Below, in pieces: positions 35,339 to 51,868 of a stretch of 64,000 nt of DNA. The first letter of the stretch is position 1, and each line of letters begins with the position of its first letter. The DNA lies in contig NZ_JRWG01000004.1 in NCBI RefSeq assembly GCF_001573155.1, forward strand, positions 124,001-188,000, in the 5' to 3' direction. The notes under the pieces were generated by a model, which saw nothing but the letters and a program-made list of their open reading frames with translations, had not been told where the DNA came from and made no database searches. The position numbers and the translations under genes are program-made. The DNA is from Aequorivita aquimaris. Its GTDB lineage: Bacteria; Bacteroidota; Bacteroidia; Flavobacteriales; Flavobacteriaceae.

Positions 35339-37582
35339 ATGAAAAAAAGTACTTTTAAACCATTTCTGATTGTATGTCTTTTGCTTTTAAGCTTTGGATT
35401 GCAAGCACAGAATGCGTTGTGGAGCAAAGTATCGCCCACAGAGACGCAAAACCGACAGAAAGTCTTCCGCAATGCTATGCCGCAGGACTTTAACCTTTAT
35501 TCCCTGAACACAACAGCTCTTAAGAACCAGTTGCATAATGCACCTGAAAGATTTACACGTCTTTCAAATGTTGTAATTGAGCTTCCAACAAATAATGGCG
35601 AAATACAACGTTTCCGCGTTTATGAAGCTTCTATTATGGAGCCAGCGCTTCAGGCACAACACCCAAACATTCGTTCATACGCAGCCCAAGGTATTGATGA
35701 TCCTTCTGCCGTTGCTCGTTTTAGTGTTTCAAATGTAGGAGTACACGTGATGATTTCATCTCTAAACTATTCTACTATCTACATTGATCCTTACACTCAG
35801 GACAAAACTTACTATATAGCTTATAATAGAGATCAGGTTCCTGCAGATCCTAATGCCCCAGTATGTATGGCTGAGGATAACGAAATTATCGATATGCCAT
35901 TAGATTACAGAAATGCTGATGATGGAGTTCTTAGAACATACCGTCTTGCCTTGGCTTGTACTGGTGAATATGCACAATACCACCTTAACCAACAAGGAAT
36001 AGACCCAGGAGAGCCAGACCCTGTTAAGAAGGCTGCTGTACTTTCTGCCATGAACGTTTCTATGACACGTGTAAATGGTGTCTATGAAAGAGATGCCTCT
36101 CTTACTATGGTAATAATTGCAAATAATACCGATATTATATACTTAAATTCAGCAACGGACCCGTACACAAATAACAGTGGAGGTACAATGTTAGGTCAAA
36201 ATCAAACCACTTGTGATAACGTAATAGGAAATGCCAATTATGACATTGGGCACGTATTTAGTACTGGCGGTGGTGGAATCGCTGGTTTACGCGTACCATG
36301 TGTAACAGGTCAAAAAGCAAGAGGTGTTACTGGATTAACTGCTCCTATAGGAGATATATTTAATATTGACTTTGTGGCTCACGAAATGGGACATCAATTT
36401 GGCGCTAACCACACCTTCAACAACTCTTGTGGTAACAATAGATATGCTCCAACTGCAGTAGAGCCAGGAAGCGGTTCTTCTATTATGGGTTACGCAGGTA
36501 TTTGTCCTCCTAATGTACAAAACAATAGCGACGATTATTTTACAGCTATAAGCATTCAAGAAATTTGGAACTTTATTAAAAACGGTTCCGGACAATGTGC
36601 TACACAAACTCCAACCAACAACCTACCTCCCACTGCAGATGCTGGTCCTGATTATACACTTCCCATATCTACTCCATTTATCTTAAAAGGTATTGCTAGT
36701 GATCCAGATGGAGATGTATTATCACATTGCTGGGAACAGATGAACCCACAGGTTGCTCCTATGCCACCTCAAAATAGTTCAACCTCTGGCCCAGCTTTTA
36801 GAACCAATGATCCTATTGGCTCTCCTGACAGATATATGCCCGCAATTGGAACTGTACTTGCTGGAAACACCCAAAGCACTTGGGAAGTGGTACCTTCTGT
36901 AGGAAGAACTATGAATTTCAGATATACCGTTCGCGACAATGTTGCCGGAGGTGCCGCCTCGGCAAGCGACAACGTATTGTTAACTTTTGATGGAGGTTCT
37001 GGTCCATTTGTAGTTACATCACAAAACACAGCCACTACTTGGACTATCGGAAATACCGAAACCGTGACTTGGGATGTTGCAGGAACCGATGTAGCTCCAG
37101 TAGATAGCCCTAATGTGGACATCTGGTTTTCTACCGATAACGGCCAGACATACCCAATTGCAGTTGCATTGAACTTACCAAACAACGGAAGCGCAGTTGT
37201 TAATGTACCAAACCTTAACACTACTACGGGTAGATTGATGGTTATGTCATCAAACAATATCTTTTACGATGTTAACAATGCTACAATTACTGTTGATGGC
37301 GTAGTAGGTGTTGAGGACTTTACATTTGATAATTTCTCAGTGTATCCAAACCCTTCAAGTGGGACTTTCAACCTTACTTTTACACCAGCTTCAAACGATA
37401 AGATTGAAATTTCGCTTTACGATTTAAGAGGAAGAGTAATCAACCAATACACTTTTGATGATGCTTCTACTTCAAGTACTTTCAGCAAGCAGTTGGAGTA
37501 TAGCTATATCGATAGTGGAATGTATTTCCTTGTAGTGAAGAATGGCAACAAAGTAACTACTAAGAAGATTGTGAAAAATTAA
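35339..37582 (+). CDS. Secreted reprolysin-like zinc metalloprotease with T9SS type A sorting domain
   Basis: 747 aa. Signal peptide ending at LQAQ, a propeptide-like region of about 180 residues, then a metzincin catalytic domain. The zinc motif HEMGHQFGANH (His, His, His with catalytic Glu) is at about residue 347, with the Met-turn SIMGYAGIC about 40 residues later. Next comes a PKD-like domain (TADAGPDYTLPISTPFILKG) and a further beta domain. The C terminus is a type A sorting domain (VYPNPSSGTFNL...GMYFLVVKNGNKVTTKKIVKN). Predicted to be exported by T9SS and cleaved by PorU. A TATCTTTA box lies at 35298-35305. Confidence 0.93.
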   Translation: MKKSTFKPFLIVCLLLLSFGLQAQNALWSKVSPTETQNRQKVFRNAMPQDFNLYSLNTTALKNQLHNAPERFTRLSNVVIELPTNNGEIQRFRVYEASIMEPALQAQHPNIRSYAAQGIDDPSAVARFSVSNVGVHVMISSLNYSTIYIDPYTQDKTYYIAYNRDQVPADPNAPVCMAEDNEIIDMPLDYRNADDGVLRTYRLALACTGEYAQYHLNQQGIDPGEPDPVKKAAVLSAMNVSMTRVNGVYERDASLTMVIIANNTDIIYLNSATDPYTNNSGGTMLGQNQTTCDNVIGNANYDIGHVFSTGGGGIAGLRVPCVTGQKARGVTGLTAPIGDIFNIDFVAHEMGHQFGANHTFNNSCGNNRYAPTAVEPGSGSSIMGYAGICPPNVQNNSDDYFTAISIQEIWNFIKNGSGQCATQTPTNNLPPTADAGPDYTLPISTPFILKGIASDPDGDVLSHCWEQMNPQVAPMPPQNSSTSGPAFRTNDPIGSPDRYMPAIGTVLAGNTQSTWEVVPSVGRTMNFRYTVRDNVAGGAASASDNVLLTFDGGSGPFVVTSQNTATTWTIGNTETVTWDVAGTDVAPVDSPNVDIWFSTDNGQTYPIAVALNLPNNGSAVVNVPNLNTTTGRLMVMSSNNIFYDVNNATITVDGVVGVEDFTFDNFSVYPNPSSGTFNLTFTPASNDKIEISLYDLRGRVINQYTFDDASTSSTFSKQLEYSYIDSGMYFLVVKNGNKVTTKKIVKN

Positions 37583-45986: not shown

Positions 45987-46019
45987 TTTGCACTTTATCG
46001 AAATTTTATCATATTATTG
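45987..46019 (+). promoter_or_regulatory. Promoter of the tandem secreted-protein operon
   Basis: TTTG (45987-45990), 21-base spacer, TATTATTG (46012-46019), close to the Bacteroidota consensus, 27 bp before the first ATG. No terminator is visible until 51841. Confidence 0.5.
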
Positions 46020-46046: not shown

Positions 46047-46865
46047 ATGAAAATAAAACTACCTACAATGTGGTCAGCTTTTGCGACCGCTCTTTTCTTG
46101 GCTCATAGCCTTTCCTACGCTCAGGTGGGGATAAATACTACCACACCCAACGGAATTTTAGAAGTGAACAGCTCCAATCAAGGCGTGGTACTGCCGCGCT
46201 TGGCCCTCACAGCCACAAATGTTATGGCACCTGCTACTAATCCACAATTAAGTGCGATTCCAATTGGCACAACTGTTTACAATACCAATTCCACATCAAC
46301 GGGGGCCAATGATGTTTATCCAGGAATCTATGTATGGGATGGAACTAAATGGATTAATCAATTCACCAAGAAAGATATTAAAATTATTAAACAGTCTCCT
46401 TTGGGTTATCGACCACTATCACAAGACGGCTTTATATATATTGGCAATTTGGGGAGTCAATATTTTACCCCTAAATATTCAGGAAGATATAAAATAGAAG
46501 TTAGTATGAACTACGGCGCCGGCAGTCCCAGAGATGTCAGCGGCGACTTTAGAGCACTAACTGAAGAAGGAAATTTTCTATTTACCTTTAATAGTAGTAA
46601 TTATATAATTCCAGCAAAAGCATATAGTACAAAGTCCGGAAGTAATAGTGGTCAAAATTATTTCCTAATTTGGGAACAATATTCTAAAATCTTATATGTA
46701 GATCTGATTGCTAAAGTTCCCTATAATTTTAGTTTACAATTTGATCAACTGCCTGCACCAGATTATGCAAATAATGGAAATTCTACCGGATATCCTAATG
46801 GAGGGGCGGGATATATTGGGTATGATATTCCTTGTTCTGTTGAATTTATGTTTTTAGACGAATAA
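46047..46865 (+). CDS. Secreted protein of a tandem triplet, copy 1
   Basis: 272 aa from the ATG of the signal peptide (MKIKLPTMWSAFATALFLAHSLSYAQ); an in-frame extension of 44 codons upstream has no signal. The mature N terminus VGINTTTPNGILEVNSSNQG is the 'VGIGTT.PNG.LEV' head seen in flavobacterial surface and tail-fibre-like proteins. A linker repeat-like block with YPGIYVWDGTKWINQF follows. The C-terminal half resembles a jelly-roll/C1q-like domain (YFTPKYSGRYKIEVSMNYG...YIGYDIPCSVEFMFLDE). There is no T9SS sorting domain. Function unknown. First of three paralogues and a larger cargo gene. Confidence 0.85.
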   Translation: MKIKLPTMWSAFATALFLAHSLSYAQVGINTTTPNGILEVNSSNQGVVLPRLALTATNVMAPATNPQLSAIPIGTTVYNTNSTSTGANDVYPGIYVWDGTKWINQFTKKDIKIIKQSPLGYRPLSQDGFIYIGNLGSQYFTPKYSGRYKIEVSMNYGAGSPRDVSGDFRALTEEGNFLFTFNSSNYIIPAKAYSTKSGSNSGQNYFLIWEQYSKILYVDLIAKVPYNFSLQFDQLPAPDYANNGNSTGYPNGGAGYIGYDIPCSVEFMFLDE

Positions 46866-46903
46866 GTTAAAAACTTTATATATCGACCTTTAAATACTAA
46901 TAT

Positions 46904-47716
46904 ATGAAACTTCTGAAATTCATTCTGTTTTTAATATCATTTGGAACGATGGCACAAGTAGGCATAGGCACGACTTCTCCAAATGGGATTATGGAAATTA
47001 ATAGCTCAATATCTGGGCTGGTTTACCCTGTTGTAGCACTTACCGCCACAAATTCCCAGACTCCAGTTTTAAATCCTAATTCTGGAACGCTTGTACCTGG
47101 AACTGTTGTTTATAATACAAATTTAAACAATGCTGGAATTAATAGTGTATATCCGGGCACCTATATGTGGGACGGGTCCAATTGGATACCGCAATTTAGC
47201 AAAAGACACTCAGAGATTTTTTTTCAAAATCCCACTGTTTTGAGGACCGAATCAGATTTAACCAATCAGGATGTGCCAGGATTAGGCGTTACTGAGAATA
47301 AATTCTTTAGAACAAAATATAACGGATATTATAGAGTTGAGATTCGCGTAAACTTCGGAGGAGGTAGAGTAACCTCACCGGTTCCCGGAGATGATAATGC
47401 AGCTTTTCAGGACGGCACCTTTAAATTTAATTTTAATGGCACTACATATCCTGTAAATGTGAAGTCAATCTCTACGTATGATTTATCTAGTGGATCAACG
47501 GTTTTCTACGAGGGCGTATGGAAAGAATCTTATCTCGTATTATTTTTAGATTTAGTGGCCGCAACAGATTATTATTTCAGCCTAACTTTTTCACAATCGC
47601 CAGCGCCAGCTTTTAATAATAATGGAGAATTTGGCGATGGCCGAGGTTATGTAGGAAAAGACATTCCATGTTCGATAGAATTTACTTATATAGAAGACTA
47701 TACTGGTGATATCTAA
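46904..47716 (+). CDS. Secreted protein of a tandem triplet, copy 2
   Basis: 270 aa. Signal peptide ending at TMAQ, then VGIGTTSPNGIMEINSSISG, YPGTYMWDGSNWIPQF, the core KFFRTKYNGYYRVEIRVNFGGG and the end GYVGKDIPCSIEFTYIEDYTGDI. Same layout as its neighbours and clearly homologous, but with diverged loops, so the duplication is not recent. It starts 38 bp after copy 1 and ends 21 bp before copy 3, with no promoter or terminator between. Confidence 0.85.
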   Translation: MKLLKFILFLISFGTMAQVGIGTTSPNGIMEINSSISGLVYPVVALTATNSQTPVLNPNSGTLVPGTVVYNTNLNNAGINSVYPGTYMWDGSNWIPQFSKRHSEIFFQNPTVLRTESDLTNQDVPGLGVTENKFFRTKYNGYYRVEIRVNFGGGRVTSPVPGDDNAAFQDGTFKFNFNGTTYPVNVKSISTYDLSSGSTVFYEGVWKESYLVLFLDLVAATDYYFSLTFSQSPAPAFNNNGEFGDGRGYVGKDIPCSIEFTYIEDYTGDI

Positions 47717-47737
47717 ACCAAATAACTAGACCCCATT

Positions 47738-48556
47738 ATGAAACGCAATAATTTTTTTAAAGAAAAATATCTTCTGTTTTTACTATTAGTATTAACAAGT
47801 ACAGTTGTCTTTTCACAAATTGGCATAGGAACTATAAAGCCAGAAGGCATGCTGGATTTGGAAAGTTCCCAATATGGATTGGTCTATCCTCGCGTGGCTC
47901 TGGTCAAGACAAATCAACAGTTGCCAGTAACAAATCCGAACGGAGGCAATTTAGTAGCCGGAACCGTGGTTTATAATACAAGCACTACCAGTACAGGAGA
48001 CCATGATGTTTATCCGGGAGTTTATGTTTGGGATGGTGCGGCGATAAACCCTAAATGGATTCCTCAATTTATTTTAGAACATTCAGCGCTCTTCGCGCAA
48101 AATCCCTTAAATTTTAGTGTGCCCTTGAGTGGTGGGTTTAGAGATGTTCCCAATCTTGGAAATGGCAAAACTTTTAAAGCAAAATATACTGGCATATATC
48201 GCATAGAGGCTAACTTCAATTTTGGAGCGGGCCAGGCTCTTAATCCTAGCGGTTCAGAAAGTGTTAGAATGGCCACCCAAGAAGGTTATTTTCGTTTTAT
48301 TTTTAACGGAACAAATTATGACATATATACCCACGCCTACTCAATAAAGAACAATATTACCAATCAAAACTTTAATCGGTTTCGTCACGACTCATCCTTA
48401 ATTTTGTACTTAAATTTAAGCGCGGGTCAAACCTACCCATTCAGACTTCAAATGGATCTTCAGGTATCCAATACAAGTGATTATGATACTGCAACCAATG
48501 GAATTGTTGGTATAGACGTTCCCTGCACCATCGAATTTACATATATTAATGAATAG
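47738..48556 (+). CDS. Secreted protein of a tandem triplet, copy 3
   Basis: 272 aa. Signal peptide ending at VVFSQ, then IGIGTIKPEGMLDLESSQYG, YPGVYVWDGAAINPKWIPQF, the core TFKAKYTGIYRIEANFNFGAG and the end GIVGIDVPCTIEFTYINE. The head domain has LDL in place of the LEV/MEI of the others, and the loop before PKWIPQF is longer. No sorting domain. It lies 56 bp before the choice-of-anchor-B cargo gene, suggesting joint expression. Confidence 0.85.
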   Translation: MKRNNFFKEKYLLFLLLVLTSTVVFSQIGIGTIKPEGMLDLESSQYGLVYPRVALVKTNQQLPVTNPNGGNLVAGTVVYNTSTTSTGDHDVYPGVYVWDGAAINPKWIPQFILEHSALFAQNPLNFSVPLSGGFRDVPNLGNGKTFKAKYTGIYRIEANFNFGAGQALNPSGSESVRMATQEGYFRFIFNGTNYDIYTHAYSIKNNITNQNFNRFRHDSSLILYLNLSAGQTYPFRLQMDLQVSNTSDYDTATNGIVGIDVPCTIEFTYINE

Positions 48557-48612
48557 ATCAATCAGATAAGATAACGACAACCCATTATTCACTACAAATA
48601 GACCATGACATT

Positions 48613-51600
48613 ATGAAAGGTAATCTACTTTTAATTATTACAATTTGTTTCTTTGGTGCGACCGCCCAAACCCCTTGTGTCAATGGTTTTGCTACAGTTG
48701 GTGGCAAAAGTTACCCTTGCAACGGTTTGACTTTACAAAGCTATATATCTGCGGCTACAATGAATGCTGCAGAAGCACAGGACTCATGGGGCTGGACCGA
48801 TCCTCAGAGCGGTAAGGAATATGCAATAGTTGCATTGGACAATGGTACCGCCTTTGTTGATATCAGCAATCCTACAAATCCAAAATATCTTGCTAGATTA
48901 AACACGCAAGTATCCTCCAGCCTATGGCGAGATGTAAAAGTGTACAAAGATCACGCATTTATTGTAAGTGATGCCAATGGCAATCACGGGATGCAAATTT
49001 TTGATCTGAGAAGATTGCGAACGCTTACCGGTAGCTCTCCGGTTACCTTTACAAAATCACAAACCGATGGTAATTTGTTTTGGGACGGCACCGGCTCCAG
49101 TGGAAGGGGAAGTGCACATAATATTGTTGTTAATGAAGCCTCTGGCTATGCCTATATTTTAGGTTCACCAGGTTATAACAGTGGGGGACCGATTGTAGTA
49201 AAATTAGACAATAATAATGATGGCATACCTAATGATCCCGTTGTGGTAAAACTATATTCTACATTAGGCTATTGCCACGATGCCGAAGTGGTAATTTACG
49301 ATGGCCCAGACCCAGATTATCAAGGCAGAGAAATTATGATTGGTGCATTTAGCGGAAATAATAAAGTAAACATTATTGATTTCACTAACAAATCAAACCC
49401 TTCGGTAATATCATCTGTTACGTATTCCAATAAGTATTATACCCATCAAGGCTGGTTTACGGAGGATAAACGTTTCTTTATTGCAGGGGATGAAAAAGAT
49501 GAAGAATTAGCTGGTTTAAATACTCGCACTTTGGTCTTTAATGTCGAAGACCTTGACAATCCAACATTATTTTACACATATTCTGGTTCAACTCCAGCTA
49601 TTGACCATAATGGATATATTAATGGAAATAGATACTACTTAGCCAATTATGCGGCGGGTGTTCGAATTATAAAAGTGGATGGTCTGTATAACCAGAACCC
49701 AGGTATGACTGAAATAAATTATTTCGATTGCTTTCCACAAAATAATAACGCCGCTTTCAACGGTACGTGGAACGTTTACCCATATTTTTCAAGTGGAAAT
49801 ATAATTGCGACCGGCTTCGGAGATGGGAATATAAATGGAGACGGGGGACTCTTTATTATCAAAGATCCACTCTACGATAATATTTCACCCATTGCCAACT
49901 GTCAGAACTACACAGCGGTCTTAGATAAAAATACTGGCAGTGTTACAATTACAGCGGACGATATTGATAATGGTTCAACAGATAATTTTGGAATTACAAA
50001 AAGAACTATAACTGCAGGGCAAACAACATTTACCTGTAAAGATGTTGGACAAACATTTAATATAACCCTAACCGTAGAAGACGACTATGCAAACAAAGCT
50101 TCATGTACTGCCGTGGTTACTGTTGCTGCGCCAACAACAATTTACTCAGGAAGCAGTTGGAGTAATGGAGCCCCAGGTCCTGGCTCAAATGCGATAATAA
50201 GTAGCAACTACGATACATCCTCCAAAGGAAGCATTAATGCATGTACTTGTGAAGTTGACGCCAACAAAACCCTAACAGTTGCCGCAGAAGATTATATTAA
50301 CATCACAAAAGATATTACCGTAAACGGTAATCTAATTGTAGAACATCAAGGTAGCGTGGTACAATCTGACGATAGTGCAGTGGTCACCAACAACGGTACT
50401 ATTAATGTAAACTACACAACCCCTTTTATGCTCCCCCGCGTATTCTTGGTAATGGGAAGCCCCATGACAGTTGAAACTCGGGATGGTGTTTTTGCCGATT
50501 CTTATATGTTCTTAAATCACCTTACTGAAAACTTTGTTCCCAATCCAGATGTTGAAGATCAGTTTCCTCTTGCCGAAAACTTTGCCGATGATAATAGGGA
50601 TAACTGGGTGCTATATTCAGGAACAATAAATCCAGGAGAAGGTTATATTTCCCGTCCACAACTGAACGGCAATGACGGAAATAAAACCTATGACATGACC
50701 TTCGAACAAGGCACTTTGAACACAGGCGAAGTAAATTTCACAGTAAAATATAACGGTAACAGAAACAGCAGCCCTAACGTACTAGCAAATCCGTACCCTT
50801 CTGCAATCAGTGCCGCAGATTTCATTAATGCAAACACAATGGTAAACGAGGTCTATTTTTGGAATCCAAATACACCTCCTAGCCCATCCCTTCCGGGTGC
50901 CTATGCAATGAATTTTAGCATGGAAGATATTTCTATGTATAACCTTTCGGGCGGAACCTATGCTCCATCAGACCCAACACAAACCCCTCCAAGTGAATAT
51001 ATTTCTACAGGACAAGGTTTTGGTATAAAAGCAACTGCGGCAGGTATAGCAAGTTTCAGCAACAGTATGCGGGTTATTGATAACAATAATACGGCACCAA
51101 GGCCGTCACAGGACGGTATAGACCGTGTATGGATCAGTGTTGAAAACGAACAATACAATATGCGCAATAATACACTTATAGCCTTTTCACCCTATGCCAC
51201 AAGTGGTATTGACGCTGGGTATGATAGTAGAAGATTGGCTACGGTATTGTCACTCTATACCCACTTAGAAGATGGTTCAGAAGAATTGGGCATTCAAAGT
51301 CGCGAAACTTTTGAGGATGGCGCTAAAATACTTATGGGCTTCTCTTCTCTTTTAGACGAAAACCTTGAGTACACTATTTCTGTAAAAGATTTTCAGGGAG
51401 CTAGCTTAGAAAACGCTTCTATATTTTTAATAGACAATGAACTTAACACGCGTACCAATTTATCTCAGGATGACTATACTTTTAAAGTAGGAAAAGGCAC
51501 ATACGACCGTCGATTTACCATCCAATTTAAAAGCAACGAAATTTTGGGCGACGAAGGCGCAGGTCTTGCCAACGTATCGGTATATCCAAATCCCACTAAC

Positions 51601-51801
51601 AATATTTTAAATGTTGTATCTCCTGAAGCCAAGGTCAACACTGTTGAGATATATGATATAAGTGGAAGAATCCTCCGAAATATAGACCTATCCACAACTA
51701 CCCATTACCAAATAGACTTAAGCAATCTTCAAAATGCAATCTATTTTGTTAAGATAAGTACAGAAATAGGAGAAGTAACAAAACAAATTGTCAAACAATA
51801 A
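48613..51801 (+). CDS. Secreted choice-of-anchor B family protein with T9SS type A sorting domain
   Basis: 1062 aa. Signal peptide ending at GATAQ. Residues 25-430 have LVIVD-like repeats typical of choice-of-anchor B proteins (WGWTDPQSGKEYAIVALDNGTAFVDISNP, VKVYKDHAFIVSDANGNHGMQIFDL, ILGSPGYNSGGPIVVKLDN). An HYR-like Ig domain follows (PIANCQNYTAVLDKNTGSVTITADDIDNGSTDNFGI), then a beta region, and a long domain of about 350 residues (FMLPRVFLVMGSPM...LANPYPSAISAADFI). The C-terminal sorting domain is VYPNPTNNILNV...LQNAIYFVKISTEIGEVTKQIVKQ. It should be exported by T9SS and anchored by PorU. Ligand unknown. Confidence 0.92.
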   Translation: MKGNLLLIITICFFGATAQTPCVNGFATVGGKSYPCNGLTLQSYISAATMNAAEAQDSWGWTDPQSGKEYAIVALDNGTAFVDISNPTNPKYLARLNTQVSSSLWRDVKVYKDHAFIVSDANGNHGMQIFDLRRLRTLTGSSPVTFTKSQTDGNLFWDGTGSSGRGSAHNIVVNEASGYAYILGSPGYNSGGPIVVKLDNNNDGIPNDPVVVKLYSTLGYCHDAEVVIYDGPDPDYQGREIMIGAFSGNNKVNIIDFTNKSNPSVISSVTYSNKYYTHQGWFTEDKRFFIAGDEKDEELAGLNTRTLVFNVEDLDNPTLFYTYSGSTPAIDHNGYINGNRYYLANYAAGVRIIKVDGLYNQNPGMTEINYFDCFPQNNNAAFNGTWNVYPYFSSGNIIATGFGDGNINGDGGLFIIKDPLYDNISPIANCQNYTAVLDKNTGSVTITADDIDNGSTDNFGITKRTITAGQTTFTCKDVGQTFNITLTVEDDYANKASCTAVVTVAAPTTIYSGSSWSNGAPGPGSNAIISSNYDTSSKGSINACTCEVDANKTLTVAAEDYINITKDITVNGNLIVEHQGSVVQSDDSAVVTNNGTINVNYTTPFMLPRVFLVMGSPMTVETRDGVFADSYMFLNHLTENFVPNPDVEDQFPLAENFADDNRDNWVLYSGTINPGEGYISRPQLNGNDGNKTYDMTFEQGTLNTGEVNFTVKYNGNRNSSPNVLANPYPSAISAADFINANTMVNEVYFWNPNTPPSPSLPGAYAMNFSMEDISMYNLSGGTYAPSDPTQTPPSEYISTGQGFGIKATAAGIASFSNSMRVIDNNNTAPRPSQDGIDRVWISVENEQYNMRNNTLIAFSPYATSGIDAGYDSRRLATVLSLYTHLEDGSEELGIQSRETFEDGAKILMGFSSLLDENLEYTISVKDFQGASLENASIFLIDNELNTRTNLSQDDYTFKVGKGTYDRRFTIQFKSNEILGDEGAGLANVSVYPNPTNNILNVVSPEAKVNTVEIYDISGRILRNIDLSTTTHYQIDLSNLQNAIYFVKISTEIGEVTKQIVKQ

Positions 51802-51840
51802 ACAATAAATCCCCACAATCAATTATTCACTTAACCTAGA

Positions 51841-51868
51841 AAAGACCGCTCTCAGGCGGTCTTTTTTT
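51841..51868 (+). terminator. Terminator of the tandem secreted-protein operon
   Basis: AAAGACCGC and GCGGTCTTT form a perfect 9-bp stem around a 6-base loop, followed by four further T. Confidence 0.9.

Follow-up and report, generated by a model that had tools for sequence, protein, structure and literature searches.

TNF- and C1q-type domains assemble as trimers, commonly as homotrimers, and C1q itself is built from three different chains, A, B and C. A bacterial locus was compared with these systems using a 64,000-nucleotide stretch of the Aequorivita aquimaris genome (i.e. the window; contig NZ_JRWG01000004.1, positions 124,001 to 188,000), in which three tandem genes encode homologous secreted proteins (i.e. 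chains 1, 2 and 3, together the trio) and a fourth gene encodes a cargo protein of the type IX secretion system (T9SS). The new observation is that trios with the C-terminal domain of the window's chains (i.e. type 1) occur in fixed number and order, with 34 such trios in 33 genomes. We propose, with a probability of roughly 0.5, that the locus specifies a three-chain secreted set, likely an A-B-C hetero-trimer, working with the surface-displayed T9SS cargo. No such three-chain set was described in the titles or abstract openings among the literature matches listed.

The number of chains was surveyed in two sets of genomes, three of which were common to both. Twenty-seven relatives from the same genus were searched as whole genomes with chain 2 (E ≤ 1e-10), and three tandem members were confirmed at the fetched loci in 13 of them. 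A profile of the type-1 C-terminal domain was run against 397 genomes of the family (E ≤ 1e-12, at most nine candidates scored per genome) and matched 22 genomes, representing 14 of 237 genera. Three matches were obtained in 18 of these genomes, four in one, five in two and six in one. The surplus matches in the four- and five-match genomes were two-headed proteins of 478–487 aa, and the six-match genome (G261) carried two type-1 trios in a row. Over both surveys, runs of one-headed type-1 chains had a length of three at 32 loci and of six at one locus, and never of one, two, four or five. Solitary members scattered through relatives, which the first-pass annotation of this DNA had named as the evidence that would speak against a joint structure, were thus not seen for type 1, as all 34 sets were trios and one-headed chains never stood alone or in twos. 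In a sample of 296 genomes from the order, which still included members of the same family (E ≤ 1e-8, at most 12 candidates scored each), only the window's genome matched the type-1 domain.

A diverged, homologous form of the C-terminal domain (i.e. type 2; hhalign probability 98% over 118 columns) was matched by its own profile in 16 of the 397 genomes, one of these being a cross-match to a type-1 chain. Including genome G013, type 2 comprised 12 trios, two pairs, two single one-headed members and one two-headed gene pair (in G263). An extra type-2 match in G103 was a 532-aa frame on another contig.

Chains grouped by position as well as by type. A quick tree was built from all 138 chains of 46 trios (34 type 1 and 12 type 2), with supports from the Shimodaira-Hasegawa-like approximate likelihood ratio test (SH-aLRT). 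Chain 1 and chain 3 of type 1 were each split off by one branch holding 34 rows (SH-aLRT 98 and 99, respectively), the type-1 chain 2 label needed two changes, and positions 1, 2 and 3 of type 2 needed two, three and three. The six type-and-position groups together required eight label changes, as compared to a mean of 82.5 for shuffled labels. In a bootstrapped 68-row tree, each type-1 position formed one group (92/85, 90/83 and 98/97). The G103 pair fell with positions 1 and 3 in this second tree, indicating that the missing member is chain 2. G120 belongs to another genus, and at each of the three positions the chain of its type-1 set clustered with those of the same four Aequorivita sets. 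Two tandem trios of head proteins in G021 and G009 (loci L054:7193-9816 and L055:8201-10484) differ in their C-terminal parts, one of which abounds in His-Xaa-His stretches; they clustered by genome, on long branches, and were probably tripled separately.

The layout of the locus in the window is as follows:

45994..46019, + strand: promoter-like element TTTATCG-N11-TAnnnTTG, ending 27 bp 5' of the chain 1 start (pattern scan; putative function)
46047..46865, + strand: chain 1 gene, 272 aa, an open reading frame (ORF) with signal peptide, head domain and TNF/C1q-like jelly roll (fold predicted via homology to chain 2)
46122..46370, + strand: chain 1 head domain, residues 26-108 (head profile match)
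46904..47716, + strand: chain 2 gene, 270 aa (ORF; counterparts in some relatives carry domain inserts)
46955..47203, + strand: chain 2 head domain, residues 18-100 (head profile match)
47198..47704, + strand: chain 2 predicted jelly-roll domain, residues 99-267 (AlphaFold2 model and structure matches)
47738..48556, + strand: chain 3 gene, 272 aa (ORF; fold predicted via homology to chain 2)
47816..48076, + strand: chain 3 head domain, residues 27-113 (head profile match)
48613..51801, + strand: T9SS cargo gene, 1062 aa, choice-of-anchor B family (ORF with Pfam and NCBIfam matches)
48673..49863, + strand: cargo choice-of-anchor B (LVIVD) domain, residues 21-417 (TIGR04312, E 2.5e-129)
49903..51567, + strand: cargo middle region, residues 431-985, of which the first ~76 residues are Rib/PKD-like (structure model)
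51580..51798, + strand: cargo T9SS type A sorting domain, residues 990-1062 (PF18962, TIGR04183)
51838..51867, + strand: intrinsic-terminator-like hairpin of 13 pairs, 3' of the cargo gene (simple consensus scan)

The first-pass annotation had described three homologues of 270–272 aa and a fourth, T9SS cargo gene at intervals of 21–56 bp, in agreement with ORFs of 272, 270, 272 and 1062 aa, all on the + strand, separated by 38, 21 and 56 bp. It had also assigned one promoter and one terminator to the four genes, and a single transcription unit is supported from the layout. In the simple consensus scan no + strand terminator-like site lay between 46047 and 51801, and seven such sites were found over the region as against 5.7 expected. 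The element TTTATCG-N11-TAnnnTTG preceded chain 1 in 20 of the 46 trios and occurred in 32 of 7000 random 250-bp stretches, the pattern having been drawn up after viewing the same upstream stretches. No regulon for it was apparent in the window's genome, with two exact sites against two in the control and 39 against 48 when one mismatch was allowed. Two other promoter patterns were set aside: the standard sigma-70 consensus was uninformative (30 sites, 23.7 expected), and TTG-N17..23-TAnnTTTG, a Bacteroidota motif, was present in just three of 46 chain 1 upstream stretches.

Each chain consists of a head domain, a YPG-Y-WDG stretch and a C-terminal domain, and chain 2 is 44% identical to chain 1 and 43% to chain 3. 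The YPG-YVWDG linker reported in the first pass corresponds to this stretch; the 'VGIGTT.PNG' head reported with it is matched only loosely by chain 1 (VGINTTTPNG) and by chain 3 (IGIGTIKPEG). In all three chains a signal peptide was recognized by inspection, with its end ahead of Q(V/I)GI. Having Q as the first residue of the mature protein is a general Bacteroidetes rule (PMC5837995) and nothing peculiar to the trio chains. The claim that the chains have no sorting domain was borne out, as none was found in chains 1–3 with the Pfam and NCBIfam models. No Pfam or NCBIfam model was matched above cut-off by the window's three chains, which are therefore probably annotated as hypothetical proteins. 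The head domain likewise gave no Pfam match over cut-off and no NCBIfam match in the chains scanned. A Cys was located within the last 16 residues of chain 1 in 34, chain 2 in 32 and chain 3 in 34 of the 34 type-1 trios, and is the sole Cys in each of the window's chains.

Among the matches listed, 34 of 60 sampled genomes encode head-domain proteins (i.e. 'QVGIGTTTPN' proteins), the open frames measuring 80–2069 aa. Short single head proteins of 246–269 aa with similar C-terminal ends, a conserved singleton of five genomes, occurred at L069:9165-9926, L070:9027-9785, L071:8168-8908, L072:8509-9249 and L077:8155-8964. These adjoin a conserved gene of 941–968 aa whose product starts (K/N)RLFL(L/V)DAYALIFRGYYA. 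Two-headed proteins of 711–854 aa often lay directly 5' of a trio (e.g. L049:11360-13579, L052:5195-7369, L064:7341-9665), and the 478–487 aa two-headed proteins of G129, G344 and G350 end in the same type-1 jelly roll. A phage or plasmid origin was considered and rejected, as tblastn of chain 2 against 50,697 phage and 72,556 plasmid records returned nothing at E ≤ 1e-3 and PHROGs gave weak head matches only (best E 0.0076).

A TNF/C1q-like jelly roll is predicted for the C-terminal domain of chain 2, consistent with the C1q-like jelly roll that the first pass had suggested. An AlphaFold2 model of chain 2 (mean predicted local-distance-difference score 87) was built from a 47-chain alignment, ten of 57 chains being omitted (i.e. 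three from G010, near-identical to those of G017, one chain 2 with an insert from G039, and six from G021 and G009 with other C-terminal domains). Foldseek with residues 99-267 of this model returned 115 PDB matches at E ≤ 0.001 (best E 3.9e-5), the matched folds being those of TNF and C1q domains and of comparable jelly rolls from bacteria and phages. The best VIA match was the Pgp3 C-terminal domain (Z 10.5, 123 aligned residues, root-mean-square deviation 2.8), followed by EDA-A1 (Z 9.7), RANKL (9.6), the BC2L-C N domain (9.4), Caprin-2 C1q (9.2) and the C1q head (8.5). These structure searches covered mainly the jelly roll, with the head domain barely probed, and chain 2 was the one chain modelled; homology suggests that chains 1 and 3 and the type-2 chains share the fold. 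Sequence searches against solved structures gave nothing useful, the MTH1 rows at E 0.18–0.93 being taken as chance.

The cargo exceeded the TIGR04312 cut-off by a wide margin (431.7 bits against 100), and its sorting domain was matched by PF18962 (E 1e-14) and TIGR04183 (E 3.3e-13; 49.4 bits against a cut-off of 23). SprA, the T9SS part that was searched for, is encoded in the window's genome (2902.6 bits, over cut-off). A second anchor-B protein is encoded elsewhere in this genome in a 475-aa open frame. Another likely T9SS protein, of 510 aa, is present at window positions 36050-37582, with an end resembling the sorting domain of the cargo's relatives (~30%). VIA scores for the first 76 residues of the cargo middle region reached 7.6, below the tool's clear level, and past these residues the structure search of the model gave no clear fold match. 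Just the first ~90 residues of the middle region recur elsewhere in the window's genome. The region was matched in both anchor-B and DUF1028-type cargos, and cargo residues ~473-1062, including the sorting domain, recur at 46–49% identity in frames of 1,572–1,631 aa in G004, G011 and G014, indicating that the middle region is not specific to trios.

The gene after chain 3 encoded an anchor-B cargo in 29 of the 34 type-1 trios, and a T9SS anchor-B protein was encoded in all 33 genomes with a type-1 trio, split in G223 (L082) into frames of 730 and 384 aa. All 12 type-2 trios were followed by a cargo-like gene, of the DUF1028-MAM kind in ten and Vps10-like in two; Pfam names were assigned in G120, G103 and G037 and extended to the remainder by BLAST matches. 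A sorting domain was seen in six of these type-2 cargos, and the other six were truncated by a contig end. The row at L084 in G261 comprised two type-1 trios, an anchor-B cargo, a type-2 trio and a DUF1028-MAM cargo. Types 1 and 2 mostly share one chromosomal slot beside two conserved genes, which we take to be D-cysteine desulfhydrase-like and glucosaminidase genes. In G004, G010 and G017 the cargo stays in the usual slot and the intact trio lies elsewhere, and G234 has two T9SS anchor-B proteins, both away from the trio. Trio and cargo are therefore separable, as seen from these off-slot trios and from cargos without a trio.

Co-variation was assessed for the 28 of 34 type-1 trios that adjoin an anchor-B cargo and for which the two flanking genes are present (i.e. 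excluding G004, G010, G017, G234, the first G261 trio and G223). Distances among the chains were strongly correlated (r = 0.82, 0.82 and 0.90) and remained so after removal of the two flanking genes (partial r 0.82–0.89), with weak correlation of the chains to one flanking gene (r 0.15–0.43). The chains exhibited a partial r of 0.42–0.48 with the anchor-B domain (permutation P = 0.001) and of 0.08–0.18 with the cargo middle region, the partial r between the two halves of the cargo being 0.23. The three chains thus form a single unit of inheritance with a loose link to the front part of the cargo.

A chain 2 of 435–458 aa with an interrupted jelly roll was present in 11 of the 46 trios (five type 1 and six type 2), and chains 1 and 3 were never interrupted. 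The type-2 insert is a MAM domain, identified with Pfam in G039 and G128 and through BLAST in the remaining four trios. Each of the two insert types needed one change on the tree, indicating a single origin. Two independent insertions, both at the chain 2 position, merely hint that chain 2 differs from the other chains.

In the hetero-trimer that we propose, each chain would be exported via Sec, its signal peptide having been recognized by inspection, and would contribute a conserved head together with a jelly roll of the TNF/C1q-like kind, a fold predicted for chain 2 and extended to chains 1 and 3 through homology. The three dissimilar jelly rolls would pack round a threefold axis in the manner of TNF and C1q domains; the constant number and order of the genes and the clades specific to each position point to one chain of each kind in its own distinct place. 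The trimer may act as a surface binding head that lies beside the anchor-B domain of the T9SS-exported cargo or is attached to it, a link suggested by adjacency and co-variation. Lacking a sorting domain, the chains would cross the outer membrane bound to the cargo or by another route.

Several observations weigh against this proposal. At most nine candidates were scored per genome in the family survey, such that very diverged extra members could escape it, and type 2 includes pairs (G103 and G154) and one-headed singles (G366 and G184). A C1q or TNF Pfam match was absent in the 47 chains, one of which had a weak PA14 match (E 0.00037); the chains are accordingly called TNF/C1q-like in fold and not members of those sequence families. 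Only two alignment positions were conserved differently between chains, giving no clear interface signature. Whole-block recombination would give the same co-variation, which is thus no proof of contact, and the cargo middle region tracks the flanking gene (r 0.88) and not the chains. Finally, G011 and G014 have the cargo in its usual slot and no trio, and trio and cargo are at different loci in G004, G010, G017 and G234. The last two observations also count against a strict four-part complex, and the first-pass reading of a hetero-oligomeric surface structure that includes the cargo is partly supported overall. A more elaborate version, in which an obligate TNF/C1q-like A-B-C hetero-trimer hitchhikes in folded form on its own T9SS cargo, and in which trio type and cargo type are replaced jointly at one slot to give alternative surface heads, is unlikely.

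The alternative that survives best is that the chains form three separate homotrimers, each with its own ligand, with the operon supplying all three heads. This would agree with the common homotrimeric state of TNF/C1q-type domains, with chains 1 and 3 being merely 43–44% identical to chain 2, which makes separate ligands possible, and with the sets of two in type 2. However, the strict three, with no chain lost in 34 type-1 sets, speaks against separate homotrimers, as do chain distances that mirror each other more tightly (partial r 0.82–0.89) than the two halves of the cargo do (partial r 0.23), and we regard them as somewhat unlikely. Alternatively, chains and cargo may be mechanistically unrelated and exchanged as a block, mostly at one slot, generating congruent distances as a by-product. 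Both types do mostly sit beside the same two conserved genes, the chain distances are at odds with the flanking gene, and the G120 set keeps the same four Aequorivita neighbours at every position. Block exchange is nevertheless unlikely, as the trio is intact at another place in G004, G010 and G017 and as trio type tracks cargo type (type-1 trios go with anchor-B cargos, type-2 trios with DUF1028-MAM or, in two cases, Vps10-like cargos) despite the middle region shared by anchor-B and DUF1028 cargos. Ordinary tandem duplicates retained by chance, with no function as a set, are very improbable: such duplications are frequent, and single or paired head proteins do occur in these genomes, but number and order are kept over 102 type-1 chains, and the six type-and-position groups need eight tree changes where shuffling gave a mean of 82.5.

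If the hetero-trimer exists, the locus would represent an unusual TNF/C1q-like assembly of bacteria encoded by three genes, and its genomic signature would be strong enough for others to be located. If the chains ride on the cargo, the T9SS would be able to move partners that lack a sorting domain.

Three known groups offer the closest comparisons. With the head-domain proteins of Flavobacteriaceae the trio chains share the same N-terminal domain; unlike the trio chains, many of those proteins are encoded by single genes and have other C-terminal parts. As a choice-of-anchor B T9SS type A cargo, the fourth protein scores above both curated cut-offs (TIGR04312 and TIGR04183), and the difference lies in the three upstream chains, which have no sorting domain. 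With the trimeric jelly rolls of the TNF/C1q type (i.e. the C1q globular head, the TNF family, the BC2L-C N-terminal lectin and the Pgp3 C-terminal domain) the likeness is one of predicted fold, through the model of chain 2 residues 99-267. In contrast to C1q, the trio chains by inspection have the head domain in place of a collagen stalk. The resemblance to the A-B-C heterotrimer of C1q lies in three distinct chains encoded as a set, an arrangement found in all 33 genomes with the type-1 domain.

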